This document shows, piece by piece, positions 1 through 20,249 of a DNA stretch of 64,000 nucleotides. The notes beneath the pieces were generated by a model. It saw nothing but the letters and a program-made list of their open reading frames with translations. It was not told the origin of the DNA and did no database searches. A program made the translations under genes and the position numbers. The stretch lies in NCBI RefSeq assembly GCF_001625215.2, contig NC_030388.2, positions 26,152,558 through 26,216,557 of the forward strand, read 5' to 3'. Each line of letters begins with the position of its first letter. Within the stretch, counting starts at the first letter, position 1. The stretch is from Daucus carota subsp. sativus (taxonomy: Eukaryota; Streptophyta; Magnoliopsida; Apiales; Apiaceae).

Positions 1-1008
1 AAATTGTGCTGGTATGGGGGATGAGAATTTTTATTTTAATCCCATCCAGCGGCCTTGATGGCTGTATTAATAGTCCTTGGCCGTCAATGGCCAGGAATGC
101 ACCCTTGTTCTAAATGATTATAGTTTCTAGGCTACGCCCTCCCTTCTTTCTTTTTTTTGTAATTAAAGGATTATTATTCCATTGAACAAGATTTCCACCA
201 TCTTTTTGATTTATTTCTATGGAATTTTAATACCTCCTCTAGGTATTATAATCCCATGGAAATGAACTAAATGTGATTAAAACGTAGATATATGTGATAG
301 TAGTTATTTAAATTGATCAATATAAGGAAATAATCCAGGTCTCCTGAAACAAAAGTGCAAATTATAAATATTCTTTACAAGCAAAAATTACTCATGTTAT
401 GTGTAGTTATTCATATCGCTGTGCAACTCACATTTAAAGTGGTTAAAAGAACTATTAGGAAATTTAAAGCCATAAACTGAGTTCGTATTCCAGTCAAGCT
501 AATACTTATAAAAGAGAACATACTTTGTTTATTATGCTTAACTGGATTCAATCCAGAATTGGATATAGCAAGCAAATTAAGTTACCCGTGCCATTATAAA
601 AGCAAAAACAGTTCATAACAAATTTTTGCAAGGTCTGAATATTCCTTTACTATTCTTATAGCTGTTTGTTGATCATATGATGATTTATTTGTTTGATTAT
701 TGGTTTTCTTGGAACTTTTTGATTGTTTACATGATTATTAACATCATATATATCATAAGAAGTAGGAACACTGCCATCTGTGTCTTTTCGGGGTTATTTT
801 ACTTCTATCCATGCCAACCACTTGTGCGAACAATCGCTACATAATTTTCTTGCAGTTTAGTCTAGACAGTGTTCTGCAGTCATTTGTCTTGTTAAGCTAA
901 AAATCGGTAGTAAAGGATCTAGTTCTCATCACTGCTTGTCAACTTGTTAAGCCTTTTTTTCACTTAAGTATATTAATTATCATATTGTTATTGTTTATGA
1001 TTGTGAAG
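1..1008 (+). other. upstream region and probable 5'UTR intron of NRPD7/NRPE7-like copy 1
   Basis: AT-rich sequence with no supported coding region. Its 3' end is a likely intron acceptor (AG at 1007-1008), followed by the leader GTGTGACC just before the start codon. The same leader follows an acceptor in copy 2 at 13894, so copy 1 probably also has a 5'UTR intron. The matching upstream UTR exon is not recognisable here and may lie before the window. Confidence 0.45.
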
Positions 1009-1020
1009 GTGTGACCAAAA

Positions 1021-1548
1021 ATGTTTCTCAAGGCACAGCTACAATGGAATGTCATAATTCCTGCTGATAATCTTGATGCCAAAGGACTGGCATTGCAGAA
1101 GGCAATAATAGTTCGCCTTATGGATGAGTTTGCTGCCAAGAAAGCTACAAGTTCTCTTGGCTATTTTCTTGCAGTAACCTCTTTGGACAAAGTGGGAGAA
1201 GGAAGAGTGAGAGAGCACTCAGGGGATGTGCTTTTTCCTGTAACCTTCACTTGCTTGACCTACAAGGCTTTTTCTGGTGAGGTTTTAGAAGGCGAAGTGC
1301 ACAAGATTCTGAAGCATGGTGTATTTATTAGGTGCGGACCAGTGGAGAACATCTATCTCTCTCATCTGAAGATGCAGGGCTACAGTTTTGTGCCTGGTGA
1401 GAATCCAATCTTCATGAGCGAAAAAGCAGCTAAGATTGAGAAAGGTGTGAAGCTGCGTGTTATGGTAATTGGTGTGAGGTATATGGAGGCTGAAAAGGAA
1501 TTCCAGGCAGTTGCCAACTTGGATGGCGATTTCCTGGGGCCTATTTAG
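1021..1548 (+). CDS. NRPE7: NRPD7/NRPE7-like RNA polymerase IV/V subunit 7, copy 1
   Basis: A single uninterrupted coding exon of 175 aa. It looks like the plant-specific RPB7 paralogue that pairs with subunit 4 in the stalk of Pol IV/Pol V, the polymerases of RNA-directed DNA methylation. The N-terminal half is the RPB7 N-domain (MFLKAQLQWN start). The C-terminal half is the S1/OB-type domain (about residues 80-175), with GEVHKILKHGVFIRCGPVE and the terminal DGDFLGPI. That ending is typical of NRPD7/NRPE7; canonical Pol II RPB7 ends differently, in a DDFLG form with extra residues. The start is fixed by the short leader after the acceptor at 1008 and by equal length with copy 2. It converges on the DRIP-like gene, with 399 bp between stop codons. 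An intronless coding region is usual for this family. Which of Pol IV or Pol V it serves cannot be told. Confidence 0.9.
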   Translation: MFLKAQLQWNVIIPADNLDAKGLALQKAIIVRLMDEFAAKKATSSLGYFLAVTSLDKVGEGRVREHSGDVLFPVTFTCLTYKAFSGEVLEGEVHKILKHGVFIRCGPVENIYLSHLKMQGYSFVPGENPIFMSEKAAKIEKGVKLRVMVIGVRYMEAEKEFQAVANLDGDFLGPI

Positions 1549-1947
1549 TAGTTTTTGTACTTTGACATGAACAGGGTTCATATGTGCAAGTAGACTACTA
1601 GACTCTTATCTGTATTTTGTGTTGGGGTACTTTTGGTAAATTCAGTAGATTTGGTTTCAAGTGACTATCAAAATTTCAAAATTATAGCATGGCTCTAGAG
1701 TTTAATGGTTTCAGGCTTTTATAATCAAGTTTGCTAAGGTGAGTAACTGTATCTTCCTAAAGCTTTAGGTGTTCAAGTTTGAAGTAATTAATACATAAAA
1801 AAAAAAGTCTGTACCATGAACATCTACTGCTAAAATAGTCAAACGCCAAGATGTTGATGCCTATGGGTAATCTTTAGCACATTTGCTGTACCTATCTTGT
1901 ATGCATGGTGGCCTGCTGGGAACTGTCTCGGAATATATGGTTGAAAG

Positions 1948-4450
1948 TCATATGTTATCATCATATCTTCCTGGCATGCTAATCCTTCTGTTACGTCGGC
2001 ACAGATACTTTCGACCATAACAAAGTACCATGACAAAGTTTTCAGCAGACTCTCCCACCTTTGCTGAAAACTTTTCTGAACTTGACATTGTTTGTGACCA
2101 CAAATCAACTACTGCATGTAGCTCCAAGCTGGAAGGAAGAGCCGAACCGCGCATGGTGATCTCAACCTATCATACCACATTTTTTAAAACAATCAGGAAT
2201 GCTATTTCACAGTTTGTACCTACAAATTGATAAACTGAAGAAGTGTTCTATATAGATAACGTAGGTTACCTCTTCTTTGCTATCAAGGCCCAGTTTCTGC
2301 GAAAGGTACTTCTTAATTGACGAAATTGGTACAGTAGCGTCCCTGTGATGCACATAATGTGAAGGATATTTACTGAACTGGCAAATGCTGATTATATAGA
2401 AAGCATGATATGGTAGAGCAACTAACACAAAAGCTTAATATATGATTCCAGCGATAAAACTATTGACTCACTTAATCATCAAGAAGCGGCAAGGGATTTG
2501 TGGCAGTGCTCTTACTCCTTCCCTGCAACCATAAAGCATAGGCAAAAGTTACACATATGTACCAAGGCTATAATATGGAAACAACCAAATTCTCTTAGCA
2601 GATGTATAAGCTCACTGGTTAACAGCAGAAACTAAGGAAAGCCAAACTGGAGCTACTCGTTTCGTATGCTGAGTGGTTGCAGTATCTTCAACAGCTGGTG
2701 TAGGAAATTTTGATCCTTGTTGTTCGTCTGCTTGTTTGGTCTGATAACGAGTCTTCCTTATAGGTCTAGTCGGAACATCACAGCTTCTTAAGTCCTTTCC
2801 TGAGCTCGTGGCTTCACATTTTGATATACTGGTAGTCTTGCAGGATATCTCCCCCTTCTTAACAGATTTAGCATAGTTTCTAATGTTTTCTAATTCTGTT
2901 GGAGGTTTCAGCAAATTACTCACCAATTCCATCCGCTTGTCATTTTTTTGAGTTCTGTCTCTACTTTTTCTCCGGATTTGCTGCTTAGACGACTCCACAG
3001 CAGAAAACTTATGCAGATGAAGATAATAACACAATCAGCATATCAAGTTAAGGTCTGCTTAAAGTACAATTGTCACATACAATTGACAAAAAGATTGGCA
3101 AAAATGTCAGTCTACACACAGAGACACAAACACACTTAAATAGAGAGTTAGAGACTTACCTGCTTATTAAATGAATCAGATTTGCGTAAATTCTTGTCTG
3201 ATCTTGAACCCTGTGAGCGTCCATCCGTTGATTTTTGTGGATTGTCTAGGGGTGAATCTGATCCTTGAGAAGAAAATATTCTTCTTCCATTTTCTTTTTT
3301 TCTTCTCTCAAACGTATATGGACTTGATGCGCTTCCTTTGTTCAACAAAGAAGAGAGACGCCTCTTCTTTCTTCTAGCAGGCGATGGGGAAGATTGCTCT
3401 GCTTCTCCACTAGAAATCTCATCATCAACCTTCACTGCCTGTCCTAGAGAAGGTCCAATTGATGCTGTAATCGCGCTCCAGCTGTGGTCTGGCCTGAAAA
3501 TATTAACAAATTTTTGTATTCAACAAAATAAGGGTTGTAATTTGTCTTTTCGCTTCATGTCAACAGAAAAGAAAAATCTGTTTACCTTAGCTTATCCAGT
3601 GGCATAGAACCAAGATATAAGCTGCACACAGGGCATCTGTTCAAATTTTCCTCTTCTATCTTCTCGCGTATGCATCTGTTGCAAACTGTCGAGCAAACTG
3701 AGATGAGAACCAGCAATTCAAGAAATTTATAAGAACAAGGAGAACACTAAGTGTCTAATCATAAAATAGTATAAAATAAACAAGAAATATTTACAATCAC
3801 TATCGTGTAATATTAACTCCAAATGGAGAAATAAAGCTGATGAACTCATAATCAAGTTCATACAAAAGCCCCATGGAACTTGGTAATGCTATTAAGTTGT
3901 CACTCAAGTGAAATGCAGCTGTAATTGTTAAGCTACCGCTTCTTCTAGGATCTCAGGGAGTTAAACGAACGGCTTAATAGGATCATATATTATCTGAACT
4001 CTGGCCTATAATTTTCAAACAGAGAAGTATATAATTTAGTAAGATATGAACTTGGATGAAATTAAGACAATTGCGTATTCCTGGTGGCCGAATCAGGGAG
4101 GCTAACTTCGCTAAACCAGGACATTGTAAATTTTTACAGGCAAAATCGATAGTTGATTTAGTAATCTATGAGAAATTTATTATTCCAGATTTCAAGTCGA
4201 GACTTGAAACAAAATATCAACCGACTTAACATTTTTATAATTTTTTTAATACAGTCAAAACCGTCGCATAAGGCTAGCCCCCTCTGGTTCGTCGTCGAAT
4301 ATATGCACACTTACATATGTGGAGGCACTCTGAAATATTAACAGGATCCTTGAAGATGTTGTTGCAGATGGAACATGTCAACAGCTTAGCCATAAAAGCC
4401 TTCCTGATAAGAACCTTCTCTCGATCATTATTGTTGTTGCTGATGGCCAT
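1948..4450 (-). CDS. DRIP: DRIP-like C3HC4 RING E3 ubiquitin-protein ligase
   Basis: Seven exons on the minus strand: 4450-4315, 3685-3586, 3493-3160, 3007-2616, 2522-2472, 2342-2270 and 2160-1948. They sum to 1299 nt, or 432 aa. The RING is C26-x2-C29-x12-C42-x-H44-x2-C47-x2-C50-x12-C63-x2-C66, split by intron 1 after ECLHI. The middle (exons 3-4) is basic, Ser/Lys-rich and probably disordered. Exons 5-7 give LPQIPCRFLMIK, VPISSIKKYLSQKLGL and the ubiquitin-like (RAWUL-type) C-terminus with LHAVVDLWSQ and FVMVLCYGRK. Arabidopsis DRIP1/2, with this architecture, ubiquitinate DREB2A and restrain drought responses; the same role here is inferred from the family. An upstream in-frame ATG at 4483 would add 11 aa. 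The gene lies head-to-head with the duplicated NRPE7-type 5'UTR exons, suggesting a shared divergent promoter. Confidence 0.88.
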
Positions 4451-4483
4451 CTTCATATATATATTTACCGTCCCTCCACACAA

Positions 4484-5129
4484 TTTGACACTTGACTGTG
4501 ACAGACTGTTTTACATGTACCTATAAATCAGTCAGATGCATATCAATCAAAAATAACGGAAGCTCGGATTATTTTTTTTGGTTGCCAAGTATCCACCATC
4601 ATTGTATACCACGAAATAAAATGTGTTCATGAATCATGTAAAGTACAAGAAATTACAAAATAATAAACTCTACATTACCGTAATCTATTTTCTGCAGATC
4701 TGAGGGAGTGTGCGAGACTGTGCGCGAGAAGAAGAGGTGAGACGGGGAAGGCGGTTTTGAATGAACAAGGTGATGAGATTGAATTATGAATTGAAAATTG
4801 AAATATTATGATTCCTGAAAATCGCATAGTATTATATGAAATTAATATGTAATAGGTAAATAAGTGTACCATGTTGAAAATTGTAATATTACAATTATTA
4901 AAAGGAGCATAATTTTATATCAAATCAATATGTAACAGGTAAATTAACGTGTACGACGCTGATAACAGCGAGTCTGTTACATGCGAATAAAGACACGTCT
5001 TTTAGATGTATAGATGTCCACATATCTTCAAAAATGTCAAATCAAACGTAATCGCATCAATGCATATGCACATAAATACAAATATTTTTGATAGATATCA
5101 TATACGTATTAAGTGATAGATATCATATA
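4484..5129 (-). promoter_or_regulatory. upstream region of the DRIP-like gene, first of four copies
   Basis: Non-coding sequence 5' of the DRIP-like gene. The part from about 4790 to 5110 (start: GAAATATTATGATT, then ATATGAAATTAATATGTAAT) recurs near 6690-7030, 8935-9240 and 11030-11345. The repeated minus-strand open frames in those copies are shadows of this non-coding repeat. No TATA box or start site can be fixed with confidence. Confidence 0.5.
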
Positions 5130-5625
5130 CTCCCTCCGTCCCACCAGATAGTTTCGTACCCTATTTGCACTCATTTTGAGGTTCTCGTAAAGTATAGTTC
5201 TATAACGTATTTTTATTTATTTATTTTTTTTGAATAAAAGTTTAAACGTTAAATTTTGTTTAGGAATTTTTTTCAAAAGAAAATGGACCTGACGCGTTTC
5301 CTTTGTTCAACAAAGAAGAAAGACGCCTCTTCTTTCTTCTAGCAGGCGAAGGGGAAGATTGCATACGTATTAAGTGATAGATATACTCCCTCCGTCCCAC
5401 CAGATAGTTTCGTACCCTGTTTGCACGCATTTTGAGGTTCTCGTAAAGTATAGTTCTATAACGTATTTTTATTTATTTATTTGTTTTGAATAAAAGTTTA
5501 AACGTTAAATTTTGTTTAGGAATTTTTTTCAAAAGAAAATGGACCTGACGCGTTTCCTTTGTTCAACAAAGAAGAGAGACGCCTCTTCTTTCTTCTAGCA
5601 GGCGAAGGGGAAGATTGCTCTGCTT
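5102..5625. repeat. tandem duplication of about 255 bp: truncated MITE end joined to a DRIP exon-3 fragment
   Basis: Two head-to-tail units, about 5102-5361 and 5362-5625. Each has ATACGTATTAAGTGATAGAT, then a lone Stowaway-like end (CTCCCTCCGTCCC at 5130 and 5386) with about 140 bp of its interior, then a piece of DRIP exon 3 starting at the AAAATGGACCTGACGCG junction. The second unit lacks a 5-bp CATAT before the MITE end. The MITE lacks its other terminus in both units, so it was broken before or during the duplication. The copies differ at only a few positions, so the event is recent. Confidence 0.8.
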
Positions 5626-6339
5626 CTCCACTAGAAATCTCATCATCAACCTTCACTGCCTGTCCTAGAGAGGTGCAATTGCTGCCTTAATCGGGCTCCA
5701 GCTGTGGTCTGGCCTGAAAATATTAACAATTTTTGGTATTCAACAAAATAAGGATTGTAATTTCTGATTTTGCTTCATGTCAATAGAAAGCAAAATTTGT
5801 TTACCTTAGCTTACCTAGTGGCATAGAACCAAGATATAAGCTGCACACAGGGCATTTGTTCAAATTTTCTTCTTCTATCTTCTCGCGTATGCACCTGTTG
5901 CAAATTGTCGAGCAAACTCAGATGAGAACCAGCAATTCATGAAATTTATAAGAACAAGGAGAACACTAAGTGGCTGAATCAGGGATGCTAACTTCGCTAA
6001 ACCAGAACATTGTAAAATTTTAAAGTCAAAATCAATAGTTGATTTAGTAATCTACGAGAAATCATTATTCCGGATATCAGTCGAGACTTAAAAACAAAAT
6101 ATCAACTGACTCAACTTTTTTATATATATATTTTTTAATTCAGTCACAACCGTCGCATAAGGCTAGCCCCCTTTGGTTCGTCGTGGAATATATGAACACT
6201 TACATATGTGGAGGCACTCTGAAATATTAACAGGATCCTTGAAGATGTTGTTGCAGATGGAACATGTCAACAGCTTAACCATCAAAGCCATCCTGACGAG
6301 GACATTCTCCGGATCATTGTTGTTGTTGCTAATTGCCAT
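5535..6339 (-). pseudogene. DRIP-like 5'-half pseudogene (RING part)
   Basis: A duplicate of part of DRIP exon 3, exon 2 and exon 1, about 85-90% identical by eye. Exon 1 still reads from MAISNNNND to SECLHI. Exon 2 (about 5905-5806) still encodes NRCIREKIEEEN and CPVC, but the AG acceptor used by the intact gene (at 3687-3686) has become AA here. A 1-bp deletion shifts exon 3 near 5670. About 350 bp of intron 1 is missing. The copy stops inside exon 3, so it cannot make the full protein. Confidence 0.85.
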
Positions 6340-6689
6340 CTTCGAATATATTTACGGTCCCTCTGCACAATTTGACAGCTGACTGTGACAGACTGTTTTA
6401 CATGTACCTATAATGGGTCAGATGCATATCAATTTAAAATAACTGAAGCTTAGATTATTATTTTTTGTTGCCAAGTATCCACCATCACTTTATACCACAA
6501 AATAAAATATGTTTATGAATCATGTAATGTACAAGAAATTACATAAGAATAAACTCTACATTAGTGTAATCTATTTTCTGCAGATCTGAGGGAGATATAA
6601 TTCATGGGTGTGTGACTGTGCGTGAAAAGAGAAGGTGAGACGAAGAGGGCGATTTTGAATGAACAAGGTGATGAGATTGAATTATGAAT

Positions 6690-7380
6690 TGAAAATTGAA
6701 ATATTATGATTGCCGTATTATGATTGCCGATAGTCATATAGTATTATATGAAATTAATATGTAATATGTGAATTAAAGTGCAGGATGTTGAAAATTGTAA
6801 TATTACAATTATTGGAAAGAGCATAATATTATATCAAATTCATATGTAACAGGTAAATTAACGTATGCGACGCTGATAATAGCGAGTCTGTTACAGGCGA
6901 ATAAAGACACGTCTGTTGGATGTATAGATGTCCACATATCTTCAAAAATGTCAAATGAAACGTAATCGCATGAATGTAGATGCACATAAATACAAATATT
7001 CCTAACAGATATCATATACGTATTAAGCAATAGATATCACACACACACATACACACACACACACAACAATTCTACAATAGAACCATATTCATCTGAAATG
7101 GTTCTATAGTAGAACCATATTTAAAAATTATATTATAAATATTTTTCATGCTCCGATAGTCAATTATATGATAAAATATTTTTCATTAAATTTGAATCAA
7201 AATTATAATTAAAAATTAGTACCATTTTAATTGATTACATTGTGAATTCTCGATTTAGATAATCTAAATCCCGCACATGTTTTTAATTTTGGTATCGAAA
7301 ATGAGATATTATTCTCATTCCTGTCAAATTGAATACTTTGGTGTTTTATTTATCCGCTATATAATTAGGAGAAAGTAATT
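6690..7380. repeat. second copy of the DRIP upstream/intergenic module with CA microsatellite
   Basis: Repeats the 4790-5110 sequence, then continues with a (CA)n tract at about 7037-7066, a small palindrome around GGTTCTATAGTAGAACC at about 7102, and AT-rich sequence up to the UTR exon. The palindrome copy has no insertion, unlike the fourth module, where a MITE sits in it. Confidence 0.75.
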
Positions 7381-7389
7381 TCTACGTCC

Positions 7390-7441
7390 GCCGCCGTTAC
7401 ATCCATTCACCATTGTTGCAGATAAAGCTCGAGCTGAGAAG
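7390..7441 (+). other. duplicated NRPE7-type 5'UTR exon (module 2)
   Basis: Contains TTCACCATTGTTGCAGATAA and ends GCTCGAGCTGAGAAG before a GTATAT donor. The same exon and donor recur ending at 9634 and 12056. Only the copy at 12056 lies upstream of an intact NRPE7-like coding exon without an intervening module, so this one may be an orphan first exon. The 5' boundary is approximate. Confidence 0.5.
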
Positions 7442-7741
7442 GTATATTTGTCGCAATTTCTTGTTCATTGAATATTGTAAGTGTTAAGAACACGCTTTTT
7501 TTAATTAAATTTTAACTAATTTCCAAAAACGTCCACCCATATATTTTTTTGTGCACGAAACATTTAACTCTATGTCTTGGGCCGGGTCTGATTTTACATT
7601 ATTTAGCCAGTGTTACAAATTATTTGTGTATGATATGTTGTTTGTGCACGCAAGTAGATCTTCATCATTATGCTTATTATCGTTTTAGTTCCTTTAAAAA
7701 ATGATGAGAATACCTTGCTTAAATGTAGTTGATTAATTTTT

Positions 7742-8093
7742 AGGCACCTCTGTTCTTTATGAGTCGATTTTTTTTCCTTTGTGAGTCATCTGGATGAAGG
7801 ATTTTATCACTACAGGAACTCCATCTTGTCAGGCCAATGTCCTCTTATCTAATTGTCCCAATGATGCCATCAAGTATAACTATATACATTTTCCTTATTC
7901 AAGTCCATCTACCATTTTTACTAGTGTTAGCCTCAAACTACCATTCTAGAGCTTTTCACTTACAATCAAGCTGTCATAGACAAAGTCATGGAAAAGGAAC
8001 TTTATGATACGTGAGTTATAAACAACACTTGGTCAGTTGTCTCGTCACTTGAAGGCAAGAAAGTTGTGGGGTACTGTAAAGGGGTTTACAAAG
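7742..8093 (+). mobile_element. decayed Ty1-copia pol fragment (module 2)
   Basis: A remnant of the linker before the reverse transcriptase and the very start of the RVT_2 region, with words like CPNDAIKYN and NTWSVVS split across frames. Homologous to the longer copies at about 9926-10676 and 12350-13690. It stops at TTTACAAAGT, joined directly to DRIP exon-6 sequence. No LTR is seen. Confidence 0.7.
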
Positions 8094-8930
8094 TAGCATC
8101 CCCGTAATACAAACAATGTGAAGAATATTTACTGAACTGGAAAATGCTGATTATAGAGAAAGCATTATATGGTAGAGCGATAAAACAAGTAACTCGATCA
8201 CTTAATCATCAAGTAGCGGTGAGGAATTTGTGACAGTGCTCTTACTCCTTCCTTACAACCATAAACCATAGGCGAAAGTTACAAATATGTAACAACGTTT
8301 ATAATATGGAACCAACCAAATTTCTCTTACCAGAAGTATAAGCTCACTGGTTAACAGCAGAAACTAAGGAAAGCCAAACTGGAACTACTCCTTTCATATG
8401 CTGAGTGGTTGCAGTATCTTCAACAGCCGGTGCAGGAAATTTTGATCCTTGTAGTTCATCTGCTTGTTTGGTCTGATAACGAGTCTTCCTTATAGGTCTA
8501 GTCGGAACATCACTGCTTCTCAAGTCCTAGCCTGAGCTCGTGGCTTCATATTTTGATATACCGGTAGCCTTGCTGGATATCTCCCCCTTCTTAACAGTTT
8601 TAGCATAGTTTCTAATGTTTTCTACTTCTCTTGGAGGTTTTAGCAAATTACTCACAAAGTCCATCCGCTTGTCCTTTTTTTGAGTTCTGTCTCTACTTTT
8701 TCTCCAAATTTGCTGCTCAGACGACTCCACAGCAGAAAACTTACGCAGATGAAGATAATAACACAATCAGCAAATCAACTTGAGGTCTGCTTAGAAGTAT
8801 AATTGTCACATACATTTGCCAAATAGAGAGTTAGAGACTAACCTGCTTATTAAATGAATCAGATTTGTGTAAATTCATGTCCGATCCTGTACCCTGTGAG
8901 CGTCCAACCGTTGATTTTTGTGGATTTTTG
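8094..8930 (-). pseudogene. DRIP-like 3'-half pseudogene
   Basis: Matches the intact gene from exon 6 back to the start of exon 3. Exon 5 (about 8260-8205) and exon 4 (about 8735-8345) are recognisable. Exon 4 carries a nonsense change: the AAG Lys codon after SSG has become TAG (about 8528). The plus-strand left junction lies inside exon 6 at an AGTAGC word shared with the copia fragment. The right junction is after TTGATTTTTGTGGAT of exon 3. It is roughly complementary in extent to the pseudogene at 5535-6339, as if one whole copy had been split. Confidence 0.85.
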
Positions 8931-8934
8931 TACC

Positions 8935-9634
8935 GAAAGCCATATAGTATTATATGAAATTAATATGTAATAGGTGAATTAAAATGCACGATGTTAAAAA
9001 TTGTAATATTACAATTATTGGAAGGAGTATAATATTATATGAAATTCATATGTAACAGGTAAATTAACGTATACGACGTTGATAATACCGAGTCTGTTAC
9101 ATGCGAATAAAGACACGTCTGTTAGATGTATAGATGTCCACATATCTTCAAAAATGTCAAATGAAACGTAATCGCATGAATGTAGATGCACATAAATACA
9201 AATATTCCTGACAGATAGCATATACGTGCGATAGATGTCATATACACACACACACACACATAATGGTTCTACAATAGAACCATATTAATCTGAAATGGTT
9301 CTATAGTAGAACCATATTTAAAAATTATATTATAAATATTTTTCATGCCCCAATAGTCAATTATATGATAAAATATTTTTCATTATATTTGAATCAAAAT
9401 TATAATTAAAAATTAGTACCATTTTAATTGATTACATTGTGAATTCTCGATTTAGATCTAAATCCCGCACTTGTTTTTAGTTTTGGTATCCAAAATGCGA
9501 TAATATTCTCATTCCTGTCAAATTGAATACTTTGGTATTTTATTTTTCCCCTATTTAGTTAGGAGAAAGTAATTTCTGCGTCCGCCTCCTTACATCCATT
9601 CACCATTGTTCCAGATAAAGCTCGAGCTGAGAAG
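8935..9634. repeat. third copy of the DRIP upstream module and NRPE7-type 5'UTR exon
   Basis: Repeats module 2, with a (CA)n tract at about 9240-9260 and the uninterrupted GGTTCTATAGTAGAACC palindrome at about 9296. The UTR exon copy ends GCTGAGAAG at 9634, followed by the GTATAT donor. This copy reads TTCCAG where the others read TTGCAG. Confidence 0.72.
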
Positions 9635-9925
9635 GTATATTTGTGGCAATTTCTTGTTCATTGATAATTGTAAGTGTTAAGAACACGTTATTTTTAATTA
9701 AATTTTAACTAATTTCCAAAAGCGTCCACCCATATATTTTTTTGTGCACGAAACATTTTACTCTATGTCTTGGGTCTGATTTTACATTATCTAGCTAGTG
9801 TTACAAATTATTTGTGTATGATGTGTTGTTTGTGCACGCAAGTAGATCTTCATCATTATTCTTATTATTGTTTTAGTTCTTTTAAAAAATGATGAGAATA
9901 CCTCGCTTAAATGTAGTTGATTAAT

Positions 9926-10676
9926 TTTTTAGGTACCTCTGTTCTTTATGAGTCGATTTTTTTTTTCTTTGTGAGTCATCTGGATGAAGGATTTTATCAC
10001 TACACAGGAACTCCATCTTGTCAGGCCAATGTCCTCTTATCTAATTGTCCCAATGATGCCATCAAGTATAACTATATCCATTTTCCTTATTCAAGTCCAT
10101 CTACCATTTTTACTAGTGTTAGCCTCAAACTACCATTCTAGAGCTTTTCACTTACAATCAAGTTGTTATAGACCTTCGTTGAGTTAAAGTCATGGAAAAG
10201 CAACTTCATGATACTTAAATTATATACAACACTTGGTCAGTTGTCTCGTCACTTGAAGGCAAGAAAGTTGTGGGGTACTGTAAAGGGGTTTACAAAGTAA
10301 AGTATTAATTAGCTGATGGTTCAATTAATAAGTTTAAAGCTCATTTACTATCAAAGGATACACTCATATTGAAGGTCAAGATTACCATAATACTTTTTCT
10401 CCGGTTGCAAAAGAGTAATGCTACGTCCACAGAATTGGTTACAGAAAAGTGTACAGAATGACCTAGATTTCACTATCTTCTGTACACTTGCATCCTTTTC
10501 GTATTTTGTAATGATCCTGTTCGTATGTTGTTATTGAGATTGTCGTGGTAAAAGGTTGGGACATCCACTGGATGTAAATAATGCTTTCCAAATTTACAAG
10601 AGAAAGTGTGCATGGAAATTGGATCGTAAAGGTCATTCACTTTGTAACTCTAGTCTAGTATGCAAGTTTCACAAAC
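9926..10676 (+). mobile_element. decayed Ty1-copia pol fragment (module 3)
   Basis: A longer copy of the same fragment, running into reverse-transcriptase sequence (around 10360-10670). Several stops and frameshifts. It breaks off at about 10676 and is joined to the DRIP 3'-flank sequence at a shared TTGAAGTAATTAATA word. No LTR or target duplication is visible. Confidence 0.7.
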
Positions 10677-10800
10677 CTTCAAATTTGAAGTAATTAATAC
10701 TTAAAAAAAAAGTCTGTACCATGAACATCTACTGCTAAAATCGTCAAACACCAAGAAATGCTGTAAGCCTGTAACTATCTTGTATGCATGGTGGCTGGCC
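10677..10800. repeat. duplicate of the DRIP/NRPE7 convergent 3' flank
   Basis: Matches 1768-1912 of the intact locus, including the A-run and GTCTGTACCATGAACATCTACTGC, with small deletions. It marks the left edge of the fourth module. Confidence 0.75.
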
Positions 10801-10804
10801 CCTT

Positions 10805-10970
10805 CATTTTTCTAGCCATTTTGCACATTCAGTTGACAAATCTAGCACCCAAGTTCCTTTTTTAATTTTTAGAACTTTATATAGTGAATAGTGATATTGG
10901 CCAAAAACGTGAAAACGGAGCTTGGGTGCTAGATTTGTCAACTGAACGTGCAGGGTGGCTACAAAAATTA
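10805..10970. mobile_element. foldback MITE, about 165 bp
   Basis: Terminal arms of about 50 bp are inverted complements: CAGTTGACAAATCTAGCACC on the left against GGTGCTAGATTTGTCAACTG on the right. They enclose an AT-rich centre. No coding capacity; ends and target duplication are not certain. It sits between the duplicated DRIP 3' flank and the fourth upstream module. Confidence 0.65.
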
Positions 10971-11029
10971 ACACAAGGAGGGCGATTTTGTATGAACAAG
11001 GCTATGAGATTGAATTAGGAATTGAAAAG

Positions 11030-11378
11030 TGAAATATTACGATTACCGAAAGTCATATAGTATTATATGAAATTAATATGTAATAGGTGAATTAAAGTGC
11101 ACGATGTTGAAAATTGTAATATTACAATTATTGGAAGGAGCATAATATTATATCAAATTCATATGTAACATGTAAATTAATGTATACGACGCTGATAATA
11201 GCGAGTCTGTTACATGCGAATAAAGACACGTCTGTTAGATGTGTAGATGTCCACATATGTTCAAAAATGTCAAATGAAACGTAATCGCATGAATGTAGAT
11301 GCACATAAATACAAATATTCCTGACAGATATCATATACGTATTAAGCGATGGATATCATATATATATATATATATAAT

Positions 11379-11424
<46 letters not shown>

Positions 11425-11467
11425 GGTTCTACAATAGAACCATATTCATCTGAAATGGTTCTATAAT
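11030..11467. repeat. fourth copy of the DRIP upstream module with long TA microsatellite
   Basis: Same module as 6690-7060. The CA repeat of the other copies is replaced here by (TA)n at about 11359-11422. Open frames reading through it (such as runs of YI) are artefacts of the repeat. Confidence 0.75.
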
Positions 11468-11468
11468 A

Positions 11469-11724
11469 CTCCCTCCGTCCCTTTTTAGTTGTCACCTTTG
11501 GTTTTGTGCCGGTCAAATTGACCAAAGTTTGACTGAAAATTATTAATATTTTATCAAGTGAAAAAATAAAAAAATTATGTCATCGAAAATAACTTTTAAT
11601 CTACTTTAAGATGTAATTTTCAGTTTTTAAAATAACGAAAGAGTGACTTATAAACTTTGGTAAAAAATTAGTCAATTTGACCAACAACAATAGAAATGTG
11701 ACAACTAAAAAGGGACGAAGGGAG
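11469..11724. mobile_element. Stowaway-like MITE, 256 bp, TA target duplication
   Basis: Terminal inverted repeats CTCCCTCCGTCCCTTTTTAG and CTAAAAAGGGACGAAGGGAG, flanked by TA on both sides (11467-11468 and 11725-11726). No ORF. It sits in the GGTTCTATAGTAGAACC palindrome that is unoccupied at about 7102 and 9296. Removing the element plus one TA restores that site with one substitution. Tc1/mariner-type MITE by its ends and TA duplication. Confidence 0.92.
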
Positions 11725-12004
11725 TAGAACCATATTTAAAAGTTATATTATAAATATTTTTCATGCCCCAATAGTCAATTATATGATAAAATATTTTTCA
11801 TTAAATTTGAATCAAAATTATAATTAAAAATTAGCACGCACCATTTTAATTGATTACATTGTGAATTCTCGATTTAGATCTAAATCCCGCACTTGTTTTT
11901 AATTTTGGTATCCAAAATGCGAAATTATTCTCATTCCTGTTAAATTGAATATTTTGGTGTTTTATTTTTCCCCTTTTTAGTTAGGAGAAAATAATTTTTA
12001 CGTC

Positions 12005-12056
12005 CACCGCCTTACATCCATTCACCATTGTTGCAGATAAAGCTCGAGCTGAGAAG
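12005..12056 (+). other. probable non-coding first exon of NRPD7/NRPE7-like copy 2
   Basis: The UTR exon nearest the copy-2 coding exon, ending GCTGAGAAG at 12056 with a GTATAT donor. The intron would run 12057-13893 (1837 nt) to the acceptor TTGATGTTGCAG. It contains the copia fragment and a foldback element. The transcription start is not defined; the 5' boundary given is where the three copies stay similar. Confidence 0.55.
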
Positions 12057-12349
12057 GTATATTTGTCGCAACTTCTTGTTCATTGATAATTGTAAGTGTT
12101 AAGAACACGCTTTTTTTAATTATATTTTAACTAATTTCCAAAAGCGTCCACCCATATTTGTTTTTGTGCACGAAACATTTAACTCTATGTCTTGGGTCTG
12201 ATTTTACATTATCTAGCTAGTGTTACAAATTATTTGTGTATGATATGTTGTTTGTGCACGCATGTAGATCTTCATCATTATTCTTATTATTGTTTTAGTT
12301 CCTTTAAGAAGTGATGAGAATACCTTGCTTAAATGTAATTGATTAATTT

Positions 12350-13690
12350 TTGGTACCCTCTGTTCTTTATGAGTCGATTTTTTTTGTTGAGTCATCTAGA
12401 TGAAGGATTTTATCACTATAGGAACTCCATCTTATCTAGTTGTCCCAATGATGCCATCAAGTATCACTATATCCATTATTCAAGTCCTTCTACCATTTTT
12501 ACTGGTGTTAGCCCTCAAACTACCATTCTAGAGCTTTTCACTTACAATCAAGCTATCATAGACCTTCGTTGGGTTGAAGTCATGAAAAAGGAACTTCATG
12601 ATGCGTAAATTATAAACAACACTTGGTCAGTTGTCTTGTCTCACTTGAAGGCGAGAAAGTTGTGGGGGTACTGTAAAGGGGTTTACAAAGTAAAGTATTT
12701 AATTAGTTGATGGTTCAATTAATAAGTTTAAAGCTCATTTAGTAGCAAAGGGATACATTCATGTGTCAAGATTATCATAATACTTTCTCTCCGGTTGCAA
12801 AATGGCATGTTCATACGTTATTGCGATTGTCATGGTAAAAGGTTGGGACATCCATCAATTGGATGTAAATAACGCTTTCTAAATTTACAAAAGAAAGTGT
12901 ACATGGAAATTCGTAAAGGTCATTCACTTTATAATTCTAGTCTGGTATGCAAGTTTTACAAATCTAATCACAGTTTAAAGCAAGCTTCTCATCTTCGGTT
13001 TGATAAATTGGCATCTGGCTTGTTAGACCTTGGGTTCACTCAAACTGTCACAGATTATTCCTTATTTGTTTACAACTTAGATTGTGTATTTGTCGCTGCT
13101 TTAGTGTATGTCGATGATATTATATTTATATGTAATAAAACAAACTTTATTGTTCATGTTAAAGGTGTTTTACACACCACTTTTACAACCATACATTTAG
13201 GTTTGGCAAAATATTTTCTTGGCTCTGAAATGCATAGGACACAATATGGATTATATCTATATCAGCACAAATTTGAGCAATTTTAAGCATGATATACTTG
13301 TTGAAGCGGGAGGAAAGCCTATGGCCCTGTGTGGAAGTTAGAGGTTTGGGGCAAAATTAGAGGTTTTGGGTGATTTAGAGGTTTGACCACTAGAATCCAC
13401 TAATATAATTGTTTGGTAGTTAGCGGATTGAAATAGAGGTTTGGACCCAAAAAGCTAATTTTGAAAAAGCTACTTTGAGGAGCTTTTTGGGTTACAGGTT
13501 TTGGTTTGTGTCAGAAAAAGCTAATCAATCAGCTATTAACCAAACAGTTTTACGAGAAACAGCTAATTCAATCCGCTAGTCAAAACATCTATTTCAATCC
13601 GCTAGTCAAAAAATCTAATTCAATCCGCTAACAGCTAATTCCCAAACAGGGCCATATGTCTTTACCGGTTGATGAGGAATTGTTTTAATT
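12350..13690 (+). mobile_element. decayed Ty1-copia reverse transcriptase (RVT_2) fragment, module 4
   Basis: The longest copia remnant. Recognisable RVT_2 words in order: DLRWVEVMKKEL, NTWSVVS, QDYHNTFSPVAK, SLVCKFYKSNHSLKQAS, DLGFTQTVTDYSLFVYN, the polymerase-type YVDDI and KYFLGSEMHRTQYGLYL. The segment 12897-13286 is open; earlier parts need several frame changes. After KHDILVEAGGKP the frame is interrupted by a 333-bp TA-flanked element, then continues as MSLPVDEEL at 13657. No integrase, RNase H or LTR is seen. It lies in the inferred 5'UTR intron of NRPE7-like copy 2. Confidence 0.85.
13322..13654. mobile_element. foldback MITE inserted in the copia fragment
   Basis: Ends TGGCCCTGTGTGGAAGTTAG and the complementary CTAATTCCCAAACAGGGCCA, with TA on each side (13320-13321 and 13655-13656). 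Removing the element and one TA restores the open copia frame (KP-MSLPVDEE). The interior is repetitive, with several AATCCGCTA and AGCTAAT words. Non-autonomous; TA duplication suggests a Tc1/mariner-type donor, but the GGCCCTGTTTGG end also occurs in other superfamilies. Confidence 0.82.
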
Positions 13691-13904
13691 TTGCACAAAA
13701 TGACACATGACAACTGAGGTGGGATTTTTTAATTGGTGCTATTAATGTATGAGGCTCATTCCAATCAAAATTTAACACATACTCATTTTGTGAATGTTTT
13801 TATATCCAATTTTGTGCATGAAGCATTTTTCTTATTATTAATTAAATGTTTCTTGATGTTGTGAACATGTTAAAGTTATACTTGATGTTGCAGGTGTGAC
13901 CAAA

Positions 13905-14432
13905 ATGTTTCTCAAGGCGCAGTTGCAATGGAATGTTGTAGTTCCCGCTGAAAAACTTGACAAAGGACTATCATTGAAGAAGGAAATCGTTGTTCGCCTC
14001 TTAGACACATTTGCTGCCACCAAAGCTACAAGCTCTCTTGGTTATCTGCTTGCAGTAACCACATTGGAAAATCTGGAAAAAGGAAAAGTGAAACGGGACA
14101 CATCAGGAGATGTCGTTTTTCCAGTCACTTTCTCGTGCATGACCTATAAAATTTTTGTGGGCGAGATTGTGGAGGCTGAAGTGCACAAGATTCTGAAGCA
14201 AGGGGTGTTCCTTAGGTGCGGACCAGTTGAGAACATTTTTCTATCTCGTTTTAAGATGAAGGGTTACAAATTTGTGGCTGGTGAAAATGCGATTTTCGTG
14301 AGTGAGGAATCAGGGAAGATTGAGAAAGGTATGAAGCTGCGTGTTGAGGTGATTAGCGTCAAGTATATGGAGATTGAGAAGGAATTCCAGGCGCTCGCCA
14401 ACTTGAATGGTGATTTTCTGGGGCCTATATAG
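13905..14432 (+). CDS. NRPE7: NRPD7/NRPE7-like RNA polymerase IV/V subunit 7, copy 2
   Basis: A single coding exon of 175 aa, the same length as copy 1. It has the same RPB7-like N-domain (MFLKAQLQWNVVVPAEKL) and C-terminal S1/OB domain (EAEVHKILKQGVFLRCGPVE), ending NGDFLGPI. Expected to form the stalk heterodimer of Pol IV and/or Pol V in the nucleus. The ATG follows the leader GTGTGACCAAA directly after a clear acceptor at 13893, so the GTG nine bases upstream is not the start. The two copies differ at many residues (for example VREHSGDVLFP against VKRDTSGDVVFP), so the duplication is not recent, yet both frames are clean and both are probably functional. Its promoter probably lies at the right edge of the duplicated module, about 1.85 kb upstream. 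Confidence 0.9.
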   Translation: MFLKAQLQWNVVVPAEKLDKGLSLKKEIVVRLLDTFAATKATSSLGYLLAVTTLENLEKGKVKRDTSGDVVFPVTFSCMTYKIFVGEIVEAEVHKILKQGVFLRCGPVENIFLSRFKMKGYKFVAGENAIFVSEESGKIEKGMKLRVEVISVKYMEIEKEFQALANLNGDFLGPI

Positions 14433-15806
14433 AAAGCTTAATTTAATTGTCATTTTATTTGACAATGGCTGTTTCTTGTTTTTCAACTTCTGGTTAGTTC
14501 GTGATTGGAACTTAATTATGATGTTTAAGTTCAGCGTGGTGCACTTTTGTTAAGTGACTATTTTGCTGTCAAATTTGTGGAGTTGGATCCTGAAATATTT
14601 TAAGTTTTGAAATTTTTGTATTATTTGCTTTTGAGTTCTTTTCATGCTTTTGAGGATAGCTAGGTTGTCTTGCTGGGCTGCAGTACAGTGAATATTCCAA
14701 CATTTAAGAGCCGGAGGTTGACTATGTTTTACAGTATATGAGAATTATCCTGACTGTCCAGCTGCAAGCTACCAAACAAAAGCGACCGATAGTAAAAGTC
14801 ACAGTTTTCGGTCGCTTTTATGCTTCAGTCTCCTAGAATTTGAATTGACTTTAAAAGCAACCGCTAGCGATTGCCTTTATATTTAGTGGCTTTTAATCGG
14901 TGACTTTTGGCCGGTTTTCTTATACTAAAGTGACGTCAATCCTGTCATGATGACACTCTTAAGGAAAATCAAGAAATATGAAAAGGCAATAAATTGGTTC
15001 GAGATAATCTTCTGAGCCATATGACACATGCGTTATTTGATCTATTTATTAATCTGTTGAAGCTATTTGGGAGACTCTTTTGAGAAGAAGTATGGAACTG
15101 ATGATGCAGGGAAGAAGAAATATATATGCTGCAATGGTACAACGCAGGATCGATTGATGACAATCGGATTATGGATCACATTCATGAGTACCAGAATACG
15201 AATTGAAGAAGCACATTTGATTGGCTTACATTCTTTACTAATGATATGGACCTCATGTATTCACAACAACCACACCAATCCAAATACATCAAATCTATAG
15301 ATTTTAGTGCTTAGCATGTGCTCATGAACACACACCAGACAAACTCTATATAAAAAAAAAAAATATTCGGTGATTAATCAGGCTAGCCTAGCCTCATTGT
15401 AATTCCCAGAACAATGAAACCAATCAATAGTCACATGGTCTTGCTCCCTTCCTCCATCACGTCTCCATTATGAATCAATGAATATTGTACTAGCAATTAT
15501 CATAAAAATGAATAAACACATACTTTAATTGAAAAAATATAAGCGTAGAAGCCAACAGCTATGGCAAACAATTAAGACAGCCAAGAAACACCAGAACAAG
15601 TATACAAGCAAGCAAACCACTGGCTATTGAAATAGAGAAGGCAGACAATATATATGTAAGAAAGTTGGTTGCTTCTTCTTGTCCATTACACACGTCCCAA
15701 ATTTTCACCTAAATGTCTATACATATGTCTATTTAATATTGCATCCAAAGCAAAATCATTCACAGATGAACTTGATATATAGCAGGCCGGTCAGTTTCTG
15801 CAAGCT
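14433..15806. other. intergenic region with a copia gag relic
   Basis: Apart from the gag relic listed separately, it holds an imperfect inverted motif around 14782-14820 (AAAAGCGACCGATAG near CGGTCGCTTTTA) that looks like a transposon scrap. 15300-15800 is AT-rich with no gene and includes the 3' flank of the minus-strand Aux/IAA gene. Confidence 0.5.
14995..15292 (+). pseudogene. Ty1-copia gag (UBN2-type) relic
   Basis: Across three frames the plus strand reads LLSHMTHALFDLFIN, then SVEAIWETL, then EKKYGTDDAGKKKYI, then WYNAGSIDDNRIMDHIHEYQ. These words occur in this order in the UBN2 gag domain of plant copia elements. At least two frameshifts and a stop make it non-functional. No zinc knuckle or LTR follows. 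Confidence 0.75.
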
Positions 15807-17347
15807 TTAGCACCTGCTTTTGCATTTTTGCATGGCTCTTGGGGCTGTAAAATTGATATAAAATTAATTACTCCAGGCTTTTAGGCAAATATTACATTAA
15901 GTAAATAATTAGTACTCTGCTTATATTTCAAAGATGAATTATAAATACAAGTAGAATAATTTATATATAGTACATACCCAGTCCAATTGCTTCTGATCCT
16001 TTCATTATACGCAGACGCTTGCACGAATCAACGAACATCCTGCACACGTTTAATTAGCACCATAATTTCTTGAATGGAGTTATGCTATCTGCAAGTCTGC
16101 ATAGCTAGCTATATATTGACCTATATTATTTCTTTCAAAATATATGAAACAATTATATAGCATCTATTTTATAACATCATCCATAACTAGATTCATACGA
16201 GAACCAATAACCCATTACAAATTGGTATACATTAGTTATTTCCTTGTGTTTACAAATAATTCAAATATTCATTATATAATCGACGATGTGGTACGTTATA
16301 ACTAGTGTACTATATATTGGACTGTAAATTTAGGGTTTAAAGTGAGGCTAGATTATATGATGAAAAAACTTACTCCCATGGCACGTCACCGACAAGCATC
16401 CAATCACCGTCTTTATCTTCGTAGCTGGGCACATACTCAGAACTGTTTAGTACATCCATGAGCTTGCTCTCGTTCATAAAATCTATCAATCCTTCGGACC
16501 CATATTTACCTATATATAATCGAAGTAATTAATTAATACAAGGTTATTATTTGACTTTTTACACATAATTTAAAGTTAGCATAAAAAAGATAAAAGCCGC
16601 GGGTGGTTTATAGAGTTTACCCAGGGTAAAAGAGCTGAACATTTTAGCCAAGGCATCGGAGAGTTGTTGGTAACTAGTATACATCTTTAAGTCCACTTTG
16701 CGAAGATAAGGCGCTCCGTCCATCGAAACCTTGACAAAAGCAGCACCACCGCCCGGTAAAGCCTTCGTCGTCGTCTCCTCAGCGTTGCTCTTCTGTACTG
16801 CCATTACATTCTTCCTGTATGACCGCACTGGTGGCCACCCTACAACTTGTGCCCTGTAAATAAATCAATCAACCACTTCTTGCACTAACAATACATCATG
16901 CAGGGGTTACACGTGTTCTCCTAAATTATTATTTTTTACAATTTTTCATCGTTATAATTTTTACTAATTTATAAAGTGTCTCCATAAAATTTAAAAATAT
17001 ATAAGTGTTTTTCAAAAATTTGAATCCAAGATTCACCCCTGCATTCGTGTATACATTCGCTACAAGAAAAAGGGTCATTTCCTATACGGACTAAATTAGA
17101 TATCAAAAAATAGATAAATAGATAGATTAACGTACTTGGCTGGTGGCTTGCTGAGAGAATGCTGAGGCAGGGTTTTGAGTTTATGATTGAGATCTATATT
17201 AGCTGCAGGATGGTCATTTTGATGAAGGTTGAGCTCGAGATTAACGGTTTCGGAGAAGCCTCTTTTTCCAGTTATCTTGGATGATTGATCAGCCTCTTCA
17301 ACGCCGCCGGGCAAGCCAAGGCATAACTCGGTTTCTTTGAGGTTCAT
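15807..17347 (-). CDS. Aux/IAA auxin-responsive repressor (IAA7/14/17-like)
   Basis: Five exons: 17347-17136, 16853-16621, 16509-16374, 16039-15978 and 15844-15807. They sum to 681 nt, or 226 aa. Domain I is [11 protein letters not shown] (EAR motif, residues 5-15); LELNL at 37-41 is a second LxLxL. The domain II degron is [14 protein letters not shown] (core GWPPV, 76-80), which TIR1/AFB bind with auxin. The PB1-type III/IV region spans [16 protein letters not shown] to [15 protein letters not shown] and [15 protein letters not shown]. The end [12 protein letters not shown] matches the IAA7/14/16/17 subgroup. Nuclear repressors of this class bind ARFs and recruit TOPLESS. The ATG is the one giving MNLKETEL; the frame is open upstream to 17509 but lacks family similarity. 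Intron 1 contains a small dispersed repeat. It faces away from the second Aux/IAA gene. Confidence 0.92.
16925..17045 (-). repeat. dispersed repeat in Aux/IAA intron 1
   Basis: The minus strand contains CACTTATATATTTTTAAATTTTATGG, also found on the plus strand around 19838-19935. Short AT-rich transposon-derived sequence, class unknown. Confidence 0.5.
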
Positions 17348-20249
17348 TATGCTTCTTGAAGCTGAAAGTGGACTCTTGTTGTTATTGATGTTAGCTAGCA
17401 ATTTATGTTTATATATTGCTTCTTGCGTTTCGGAGAGATGAGAGGAGGGAGGAGGCAAAGCAATTATAGAAGAAATGGGGAGGGATGCATAATGTTTGAT
17501 ATAGTACACAATAATTAGAAAAAAATATTAGGTAAAATTAGTACACAATAATTAGTTAATGGCTGCATTTTTCATTCGAGTTCTGGCGTATATCGTTATG
17601 ACACGTGAATTAATTGTTTTGTTAATCATGTTATGGGAGCAAGAGCTCATTAGGCGCTCGAAAAGTAATAATGAGTTCATTATCTGATTATCTGGTTTCG
17701 TTAAAATCTCGTAATTGATGAATTTTCTTGCACCAGACTGCTTCGGCATGTCAAATAAAGTCAGATAACGAGATTAATAAGTTAAGCCGGCCATTATGGT
17801 AACCGGAAATGAAAGAGCAGGTCCCGCAAATAAATAAATATAAGCAAAGAATCTTGATATCAACCATAATAATATTCTGTATGTAGGTTCAAGTTGAGAC
17901 AATGGATCCTTTGTGGGGAGGGCACTCGCCCTTTGGAATGTCTACTGCTTACCAGTTTTTTTCCTTAGTTAATTGCTCACGCGGTTTTCCACTTATTATT
18001 ACATCTTAAAAAACTGTCCTGCTTCATAAAATACAAATCAAGAGTTTTCTTTGATGATTAAAAAGAAAAGAAAGAGAAAGATTTAATTTCGTCGGGATGT
18101 TCAAATTTTGAGAGAAAGGAAAAGAAATTTAAAGATCTGGAGAGAAATCTCTTATATATTTATTCAATAGTTTTTTTTTCCTAACTTTCGAAAAGATTCG
18201 GAAAGAAAAGAAAATAACCAATTTTCTTTTTTTTTTCCCCCTTTCTTCAACGTGGGAGCACAGTGTTAAAAGTATATTTGGTTGGTTTTTTATGAAGTGT
18301 AGTTAACTCTATATTTCTATATGGTCTCCTAATCTTTATTTTATTTTATTAAGATTTTTTTTTTGTTACGTATCTATTTTTATTAATTGAGATTTATGTG
18401 AATACAAGATCGTCGTTGTAATAATGAGATTGGAATCAACACAAAGTCTGTCACCGAAAAGTAAAAGCTAGAAAATCCGTTATATTAATAACTATCTAGA
18501 GGTGGGAAATGATAAGGGTTATAATTTTATGGTCAGAGTAAGTGAATGGAATGGTGGCCTCACCTCATGAATATGTACATTGCATATTGAATGGTGCACA
18601 AGTGATGAGTAGGGATGGAGCTTTGTGCTGCGATATCAAAATGGATTATATGCAGTGGTCCTGTACAATTATACATGTAGCTTGGTTAATTGATGGCTGT
18701 ATTATAGCAGATACGTTATATTATTATTATCAACTCGACATCTGAATGCTCACGGATTTATTGCACAAAAATACCTCAACATTCCCCTCGCCCTTTTCTC
18801 TGTGTTTTTTTCTTTTTGCGAGGTGTCTTTCTTTTTCCCCGGACAAACTTGATTCTGTTACTTTCTCCCGGTATCAGTAATAATTTTTCTGGTGTGTGCC
18901 CTGAAGGCCTGAACGCATGATAATAATAATTTTTTAATTAAGTAGGGATGTTTATTGACCTCACATTGCACAAAAATCTCTATCGATGAAAATTTTATAC
19001 TTAAATAAAAAATAATTATTATTATGTGTCTATAAATACGGACACCAGCACACACACGAAAGACTCCACCGATAATATGCAAGACATATAACTTTCACTT
19101 AATTCATAAATCGTACAGCAGTCCTTATAAACTAACTCTCGGCGCAGAAAAAAAGTGCATCCATTATTCATCATCATATAAAAATCGTCGGTGCTAATTT
19201 TTAAATCACCTTTCTGTCTGGGTTTTATAAGGAAAATAAATGAATAAAATGTGTGATGGTCCTAAACGGCTGCACTAAGTTAAAGGAATATGTGCATGCA
19301 TCACCCACTGCTATACCATTTATAGGATAAAGCTAAATTATGTAATTAGGTTGTGATTATAACTAATAAGCAGACATTATCATTTTATATTTGAGTATTC
19401 TAATGAAACATATTGATGATTATTCAGATGGTTGGGAAATGATTACCTATTTAGTTATTGTAGTACTGGTACCTGCAGAACATCTTCTGAGAAGTAAGCT
19501 CATACTAATGTTGAAATTACATATGCGCGTAATGATGATTTTGTAATTATAAACAGAATTAGTTATAATCACTACTGTTAATAATTCATTAAATTAATTA
19601 AAAAGGTGGGATTTTAGTTGACTTCAGAAAATGCATGGGCTGAAACATTTAGCAACGAAGCATGTGAAAACAGATCTTCATTGAATGAGTCTTGTAAAAT
19701 TCACCTTTATAAGTTTAATAGACAAGGAACTGACACATAAATCCGAAACATATGCATTTTCCTAGAACTGGCAGATGGATCCCATGCCTAGTAGCTATCT
19801 AGCTTGTCAAGTGTATGCCTGTATCATATACAGCGATTTAGGATTCAAATTTGGGGATATCAAACAAATTTTGATAAAACACTTATATATTTCTAAATTT
19901 TACGAGAACACTTCTAAAATTTTGTAAACTTCTGAATGGCGAAAAAAAGTAAAGAAAAAATTAGGAGAAAAACGTGTCTCAAACCTCTTCTTGTCCTCCG
20001 ACACGGAACGAGAGTGGTAATTCAAGAATCACATCGGAAGATTTTATTTAAAATACATCATGGATGACCTATGATGGACCTCAGCTGTTCCAAATTTTAT
20101 GCATCAATATTCTAAACCCCGTTCTTTTTTAACTTAGGTACAGATGGATAGATACTTTGTTCGATTCATCTCCAATCTAGCTAATTTGGAGAGATGTGCG
20201 GCATTATACTAATTAGTAGTGTACTTTTAACAGGGAACACAAAATAGTA

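Follow-up and report, generated by a model that had tools for sequence, protein, structure and literature searches.

A 64,000-nt window of the carrot genome (Daucus carota subsp. sativus, NC_030388.2, assembly GCF_001625215.2; all coordinates are window positions) contains two genes for subunit 7 of RNA polymerases IV and V (Pol IV/V), here called NRPE7a and NRPE7b, and one DRIP/BMI1-type gene, D1. Between D1 and the coding exon of NRPE7b lies a repeat array composed of DRIP gene pieces, copies of the DNA upstream of the DRIP gene, copies of an NRPE7b-type exon of the 5' untranslated region (5'UTR), and copia-derived DNA. We compared the window with itself by self-BLAST (E 1e-5), complemented by repeat families and by gapped and ungapped alignments of the modules. 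In the names used below, D denotes a DRIP piece, P an upstream module, U a 5'UTR-exon module and C a copia-derived stretch, and the number gives the block. All gene models (D1, NRPE7a and NRPE7b) are predictions from DNA sequence, and the outer edges of the copia stretches, 13730 above all, were set by eye. The genes and modules are as follows:

1021-1548 (+): NRPE7a, intact 175-aa subunit 7 of Pol IV/V type (open reading frame, ORF; PDB 8hyj_G, E 1.2e-78)
1948-4456 (-): D1, intact DRIP/BMI1-type gene model of 7 coding exons, with six GT-AG introns and a frame open to the stop
4457-5130 (no strand assigned, as for all P modules): P1, upstream module copy 1, which has lost the NRPE7 5' exon
5529-6343 (-): D2, DRIP remnant comprising exons 1, 2 and the initial 186 of the 334 nt of exon 3
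6344-7040: P2, upstream module copy 2
7041-7799 (+): U2, NRPE7b-type 5'UTR exon (donor 7442) and intron start
7800-8093 (+): C2, cut off at the D3 junction
8092-8926 (-): D3, DRIP remnant with the end of exon 3 and exons 4 and 5
8931-9245: P3, upstream module copy 3, shortened
9246-9990 (+): U3, 5'UTR exon (donor 9635) and intron start
9991-10677 (+): C3
10678-10793 (-): D4, scrap of the DRIP 3' flank/3'UTR
10977-11362: P4, upstream module copy 4, now adjoining NRPE7b
11420-12390 (+): U4, NRPE7b 5'UTR exon (donor 12057) and intron start, interrupted by a small element at 11467-11726
12391-13730 (+): C4, lying within the predicted 5'UTR intron of NRPE7b and split by an inverted-repeat element (13320-13656)
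13905-14432 (+): NRPE7b, intact 175-aa subunit 7 paralogue (ORF; PDB 8hyj_G, E 8e-64)

The P modules were delimited by repeat families, self-BLAST and alignment, D2 and D3 by self-BLAST and alignment, D4 by self-BLAST, U2 and U3 by donor and alignment, and C2 and C3 by DNA identity to C4.

The array repeats one order in one orientation: DRIP piece on the minus strand, upstream module, 5'UTR exon on the plus strand, and copia stretch on the plus strand. This colinear order is complete in block 2 (D2 with exons 1, 2 and part of 3, then P2, U2 and C2), block 3 (D3 with the end of exon 3 and exons 4 and 5, then P3, U3 and C3) and block 4 (the 3'UTR scrap D4, then P4, U4, C4 and the NRPE7b coding exon), while block 1 consists of D1 and P1 without U and C. 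The upstream module was found four times (4802-5101, 6716-7015, 8922-9221 and 11035-11334), with an identity to the reference copy of 78-95% over 300 nt without gaps, and of 89-96% between modules in gapped alignment. The NRPE7-type 5'UTR exon with the start of its intron is present three times, with donors at 7442, 9635 and 12057 and a donor-side motif of 24 bases that is identical in all three copies. By DNA identity there are also three copies of the copia-derived stretch (~7800-8093, 9991-10677 and 12391-13730). Matches between blocks range from 119 bits (D4) to 2038 bits (P2-C2 to P3-C3), and the best off-diagonal score in the background set, 20 first-order Markov simulations of 16.5 kb each, was 38.3 bits, with nothing comparable to the array. 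An earlier sequence-only reading of this DNA, in which the DRIP upstream module was counted four times and the NRPE7-type exon three times in a repeated order, is thereby confirmed, as is its placing of intact genes only at the flanks (NRPE7a and D1 on the left, NRPE7b on the right). Elsewhere in the 64 kb, self-BLAST at E 1e-5 detected no further copy of any module. At the same threshold, the only matches between positions 1-16500 and the rest of the window are simple repeats plus a short pair in inverted orientation at 16.4/22.7 kb (16367-16441 and 22733-22807, 81% identical), which lies outside the array.

The array has the characteristics of a tandem segmental duplication: the copies are direct, adjacent and colinear, and the right end of the unit is joined to its left. 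The copia-to-DRIP junctions at 8092 and 10678 connect the right part of the unit with the left part, and both enter the 3' part of the DRIP gene, as expected of a tandem junction; at 8092 a four-base microhomology was seen by eye. The upstream module also holds an internal imperfect tandem repeat of 83-85 bp (4791-4954 in copy 1 and 11022-11180 in copy 4, detected by TRF) and may itself derive from a small duplication at an earlier stage.

We examined the predicted product of D1, which has 436 aa from the first ATG and 434 aa from the next in-frame ATG. Its RING domain (Pfam zf-C3HC4_2, E 2.8e-10, residues 28-68) scores over the curated cut-off, and a RAWUL-like stretch at residues 342-383 (E 2.4e-4, 21.9 bits) falls under the curated value of 33.5. 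The PDB matches are headed by RING proteins of Polycomb repressive complex 1 (PRC1), the best being a RING2-BMI1 chimera at 59.6 bits; scores against single proteins (PCGF5 39.3, RING2 34.6 and BMI1 33.4 bits) are too close to separate BMI1 from RING1. The combination of RING and RAWUL is described as a key feature of PRC1 RING proteins (PMC2447854), and DRIP1/2 are given as AtBMI1a/b (PMC3952079). D1 looks like a member of this RING-plus-RAWUL class, the home of DRIP1/2, and the DRIP name appears valid at the family level.

D1 is open throughout, and the other DRIP pieces carry the marks of decay. In D2 the first ATG is altered, the AG of the exon 2 acceptor is gone and exon 3 has a one-base deletion; exons 4-7 are absent. 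In D3, exon 4 is broken by an in-frame stop, the exon 5 acceptor is lost, and exons 1, 2, 6 and 7 are missing. Exon 4 of D3 differs from that of D1 with a nonsynonymous divergence (dN) of 0.062 and a synonymous divergence (dS) of 0.073 over 129 of 130 codons, a near-neutral pattern that fits a decaying copy. D4 is without any coding exon and was not listed in the sequence-only reading; its first 80 nt are 93.75% identical to 1772-1851 in self-BLAST, and similarity can be followed by eye to ~1914. The limits proposed earlier for two DRIP halves (5535-6339 and 8094-8930) lie close to those of D2 and D3, but these are not the parts of one split gene: in a minus-strand gene the 3' half would be the left-hand one, whereas it is the 5' half that occupies this position. 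D2 and D3 are remnants of two blocks rather than of one gene split by an insertion.

For both subunit 7 proteins, the best PDB match is Pol V subunit 7 (8hyj_G; 266 bits for NRPE7a and 217.5 for NRPE7b), followed by Pol IV subunit 7 (199.5 and 179 bits), with RPB7 far below (at most 62 and 47 bits, respectively). Full-length similarity identifies both proteins as Pol IV/V subunit 7, clearly apart from RPB7. At the 65 sites that differ between the Pol V and Pol IV references, NRPE7a is V-like at 32, IV-like at 10 and neither at 23, and the corresponding counts for NRPE7b are 30, 12 and 23. We use "NRPE7" in the sense of "Pol IV/V subunit 7" without a firm assignment to Pol V, because the similarity of the two references to one another (108 of 173 residues identical) matches that of NRPE7a to Pol V (108 of 175).

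NRPE7a and NRPE7b share 125 of 174 residues, and self-BLAST gives 78.5% DNA identity over the coding region and 23 nt upstream. Two methods place dN at 0.16-0.18 and dS at 0.57-0.75, and the resulting dN/dS of ~0.2-0.3 fits two constrained coding genes; faster evolution of NRPE7b was not significant (12 vs 19 changes, chi-square 1.58). Upstream of the NRPE7b coding region an acceptor is predicted at 13891, just 5' of the ATG, and in self-BLAST the 1 kb preceding NRPE7a showed no match to the 5'UTR exon. We considered NRPE7a as a member of the block array and rejected this, given 78.5% identity and a dS of 0.57-0.75 against 89-96% between modules, and given that NRPE7a and NRPE7b share exact 24-mers at 0 of 505 positions and 21-mers at 3 of 508. 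These divergences place NRPE7a, as an older paralogue, beyond the duplicated block and put its split from NRPE7b long before the block duplications. The earlier description of an "NRPE7-DRIP" locus holds for the names, at the family level, and fails for NRPE7a as a product of the block duplication.

In every block that has one, the copia-derived stretch lies at a constant position and forms a single continuous alignment with the exon module. Joint duplication of the two is therefore the most likely course, and the copia stretch was probably in place before the duplication. The open piece at 12897-13286 of C4 matches the Pfam reverse transcriptase (RT) family RVT_2 at 2.9e-13. When ten stop-free copia pieces were compared with RVT_2, one of four from C3 (0.011) and one of four from C4 (0.059) matched weakly, and neither of the two from C2 did; C2 is equivalent to DNA that precedes the strong match in C4. 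It is the DNA match to C4 that makes C2 and C3 count as copia-derived. Three copies of a "copia RT fragment" had been claimed; the number stands, and an RT match in every copy is unsupported, being clear in C4, weak in C3 and absent in C2.

Kimura two-parameter (K2P) distances between P1 and the other upstream modules are 0.104-0.117. Among P2, P3 and P4 they are 0.047-0.070, and among the combined U and C modules 0.045-0.062. The larger distance of P1 suggests that the first split was earlier and that two more probably followed later.

Small elements and secondary rearrangements are found within the array:

5102-5618 (no strand assigned): 256-bp tandem pair, part of a CTCCCTCCGTCCC-type element joined to a DRIP exon 3 piece (TRF, 96%)
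10803-10971 (no strand assigned): small inverted-repeat element between D4 and P4, with arms of 68 nt that are 84% complementary
11467-11726 (no strand assigned): miniature inverted-repeat transposable element (MITE) flanked by TA, in copy 4 only
13320-13656: inverted-repeat element with TATGGCCCTG ends, within C4 in the predicted NRPE7b intron

The MITE, which we take to be Stowaway-like, was inserted after the duplication; its site is uninterrupted in U2 and U3. U1, C1 and the 3' half of D2 could all have gone in a single deletion that reached from the CTCCCTCCGTCCC-type element into DRIP exon 3; the join so formed would itself have been duplicated later as the 256-bp pair (96% matched).

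We propose that the locus very probably arose by tandem duplication of a block of ~5 kb, comprising DRIP, intergenic and NRPE7b 5' DNA, followed by at least four deletions and by insertions of small elements. Duplication of head-to-head blocks with subsequent trimming had been suggested before, and order, strand, junctions and divergences support it well. The ancestral arrangement would have been a head-to-head pair, a DRIP/BMI1-type gene on the minus strand and NRPE7b on the plus strand, with a common upstream region of ~1.1 kb and a copia-derived stretch already inside the NRPE7b 5'UTR intron. The unit of duplication would have begun in the DRIP 3'UTR, spanned the shared upstream DNA and the 5'UTR exon, and reached into copia; its tandem copying, likely by unequal crossing-over or microhomology-mediated repair, would have given four blocks in a row. 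Inner copies would then have been free to decay: U1, C1 and the 3' half of D2 would have vanished together, further DNA would have been deleted at C2/D3, D3/P3 and D4/P4, and small elements would have come in. At the two ends, the DRIP gene on the left and NRPE7b on the right would have stayed intact, each with a private copy of the once-shared upstream DNA. A head-to-head spacing of ~1.1 kb, measured from DRIP start to exon donor, is still seen in D2/U2. Between the intact D1 and NRPE7b the distance is now ~7.6 kb (4456 to 12057), and each of them adjoins its own module copy. The duplication may well have uncoupled the divergent gene pair functionally, both genes being presumably expressed.

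Several observations weigh against this course of events, at least in its simplest form. The closest pair is P3-P4 in the upstream modules (bootstrap 0.66) and U2-U3 in the exon-copia modules (0.90); a simple duplication series is unproved, and later exchange between copies is possible, the hint being weak. The junctions at 8092 and 10678 differ in breakpoint, which implies independent duplications or a secondary origin of one junction; the latter, by a later deletion, is probable. Exon 1 of D2 differs from that of D1 with a dN of 0.056 and a dS of 0.268, which does not look neutral, but the stretch is short; D2 may have been under constraint for some time. Finally, ~330 bp of D1 intron 1 (3757-4084), with GTG at both edges, is absent from D2, representing either a deletion in D2 or an insertion in D1.

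The modules could instead have been kept as alternative promoters or first exons of NRPE7b, with splicing over up to ~6.4 kb to the acceptor at 13891. The donor motif shared by all three 5'UTR copies would agree with this, and only 2 of 57 columns are changed in the exon-plus-donor stretch as compared with 137 of 1013 overall. This stretch was picked post hoc, however, and is not exceptional: 3.9% of equal windows are as conserved or more, which makes selection on the exon copies unconvincing. Since the exon-copia copies are just 4-6% diverged, a kept donor is expected without function; moreover, the exon of block 1 is wholly lost and deletions reach into P3 and P4. We therefore consider retention as alternative first exons unlikely. 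Tandem repeats are a common source of assembly error and are often misassembled, and a single sequence was analyzed here, so the array might represent haplotypes or one module laid out in tandem by the assembler. This is very unlikely, given a divergence of 4-11% between copies, deletions, junctions and element insertions peculiar to each of them, and a coherent block order. The presence of a copia-derived stretch in each of blocks 2, 3 and 4 might suggest that modules were delivered separately by copia-linked transduction or capture, but the copies are direct, colinear and adjacent, the place of copia is constant, and none was found elsewhere in the 64 kb. No long terminal repeats (LTRs) were noticed, although no dedicated LTR search was made, and a copia-linked origin seems extremely improbable.

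A further idea concerns silencing, which the sequence-only reading had suggested may be heavy at this cluster; the DNA sequence by itself argues neither way. Conceivably the locus senses itself: modules and MITEs would attract 24-nt small interfering RNAs (siRNAs), and Pol V would methylate and damp the gene of its own subunit, NRPE7b. The upstream module P1, and hence the PRC1-type gene, would then be a side target, and the array would act as a rheostat of RNA-directed DNA methylation. Exact 24-mers of P4 are shared with P2 at 79 and with P3 at 94 of 363 positions, those of U4 with U2 at 166 and with U3 at 184 of 948 positions, and those of P1 with P2, P3 and P4 at 80, 36 and 26 of 651 positions. 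Through such shared 24-mers, siRNAs from dead copies could reach the live upstream region. A hairpin as the source of small RNAs was rejected, the repeats of the array being direct; the only two inverted pairs of at least 60 nt in 1-16000 lie inside small elements, and shorter ones were sought in four sub-regions. We hold such self-sensing to be highly unlikely; if the array were methylated via Pol V, it would provide a natural test of feedback. In the Arabidopsis ROS1 "methylstat", transposon-derived DNA lies beside the promoter of a DNA-methylation gene; the likeness here is the same kind of neighborhood in the sequence.

Outside the array, two ORFs at 48334-50158 correspond to halves of a FAE1/KCS-type ketoacyl-CoA synthase and are probably one gene with an intron. 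An ORF at 17096-17509 on the minus strand resembles the start of an AUX/IAA protein, its LCLGLPG motif being presumably a sign of that family; it had no Pfam match at 0.01. A search of the whole window with Rfam at the gathering threshold returned one tRNA gene (60665-60736, plus strand) and nothing within the array region.

The proposed event is of an ordinary type at an interesting gene pair: tandem duplication would have undone a head-to-head arrangement while both genes were kept. The pair spans two silencing pathways, with a PRC1-type RING protein on one side and a Pol IV/V subunit on the other, and whether DRIP and NRPE7b stay co-expressed is a simple and useful question. Neither this locus nor a DRIP-NRPE7 head-to-head pair is named in the titles of any of the literature matches listed, which left subscription papers mostly uncovered.

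Tandem duplication with decay is a common kind of event in plants. The array resembles plant birth-and-death arrays in its direct adjacent copies, intact ends, decayed middle and post-duplication MITE. Unlike them, its unit runs from the DRIP 3' end across intergenic DNA into the NRPE7b 5' intron, the copies exclude NRPE7b coding DNA, and one complete DRIP gene is left. The ~1.1 kb between the DRIP start and the NRPE7 donor in D2/U2 recalls divergent gene pairs with shared upstream DNA, whereas the intact genes here own separate upstream copies and no common one. The two intact paralogues with uninterrupted coding regions are comparable to NRPD7/NRPE7, the subunits 7 of Pol IV and Pol V, and Tucker et al. 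2010 reportedly deal with subunit origins. In contrast to that pair, both paralogues lie here at one locus, and neither is firmly of the Pol IV or the Pol V type.

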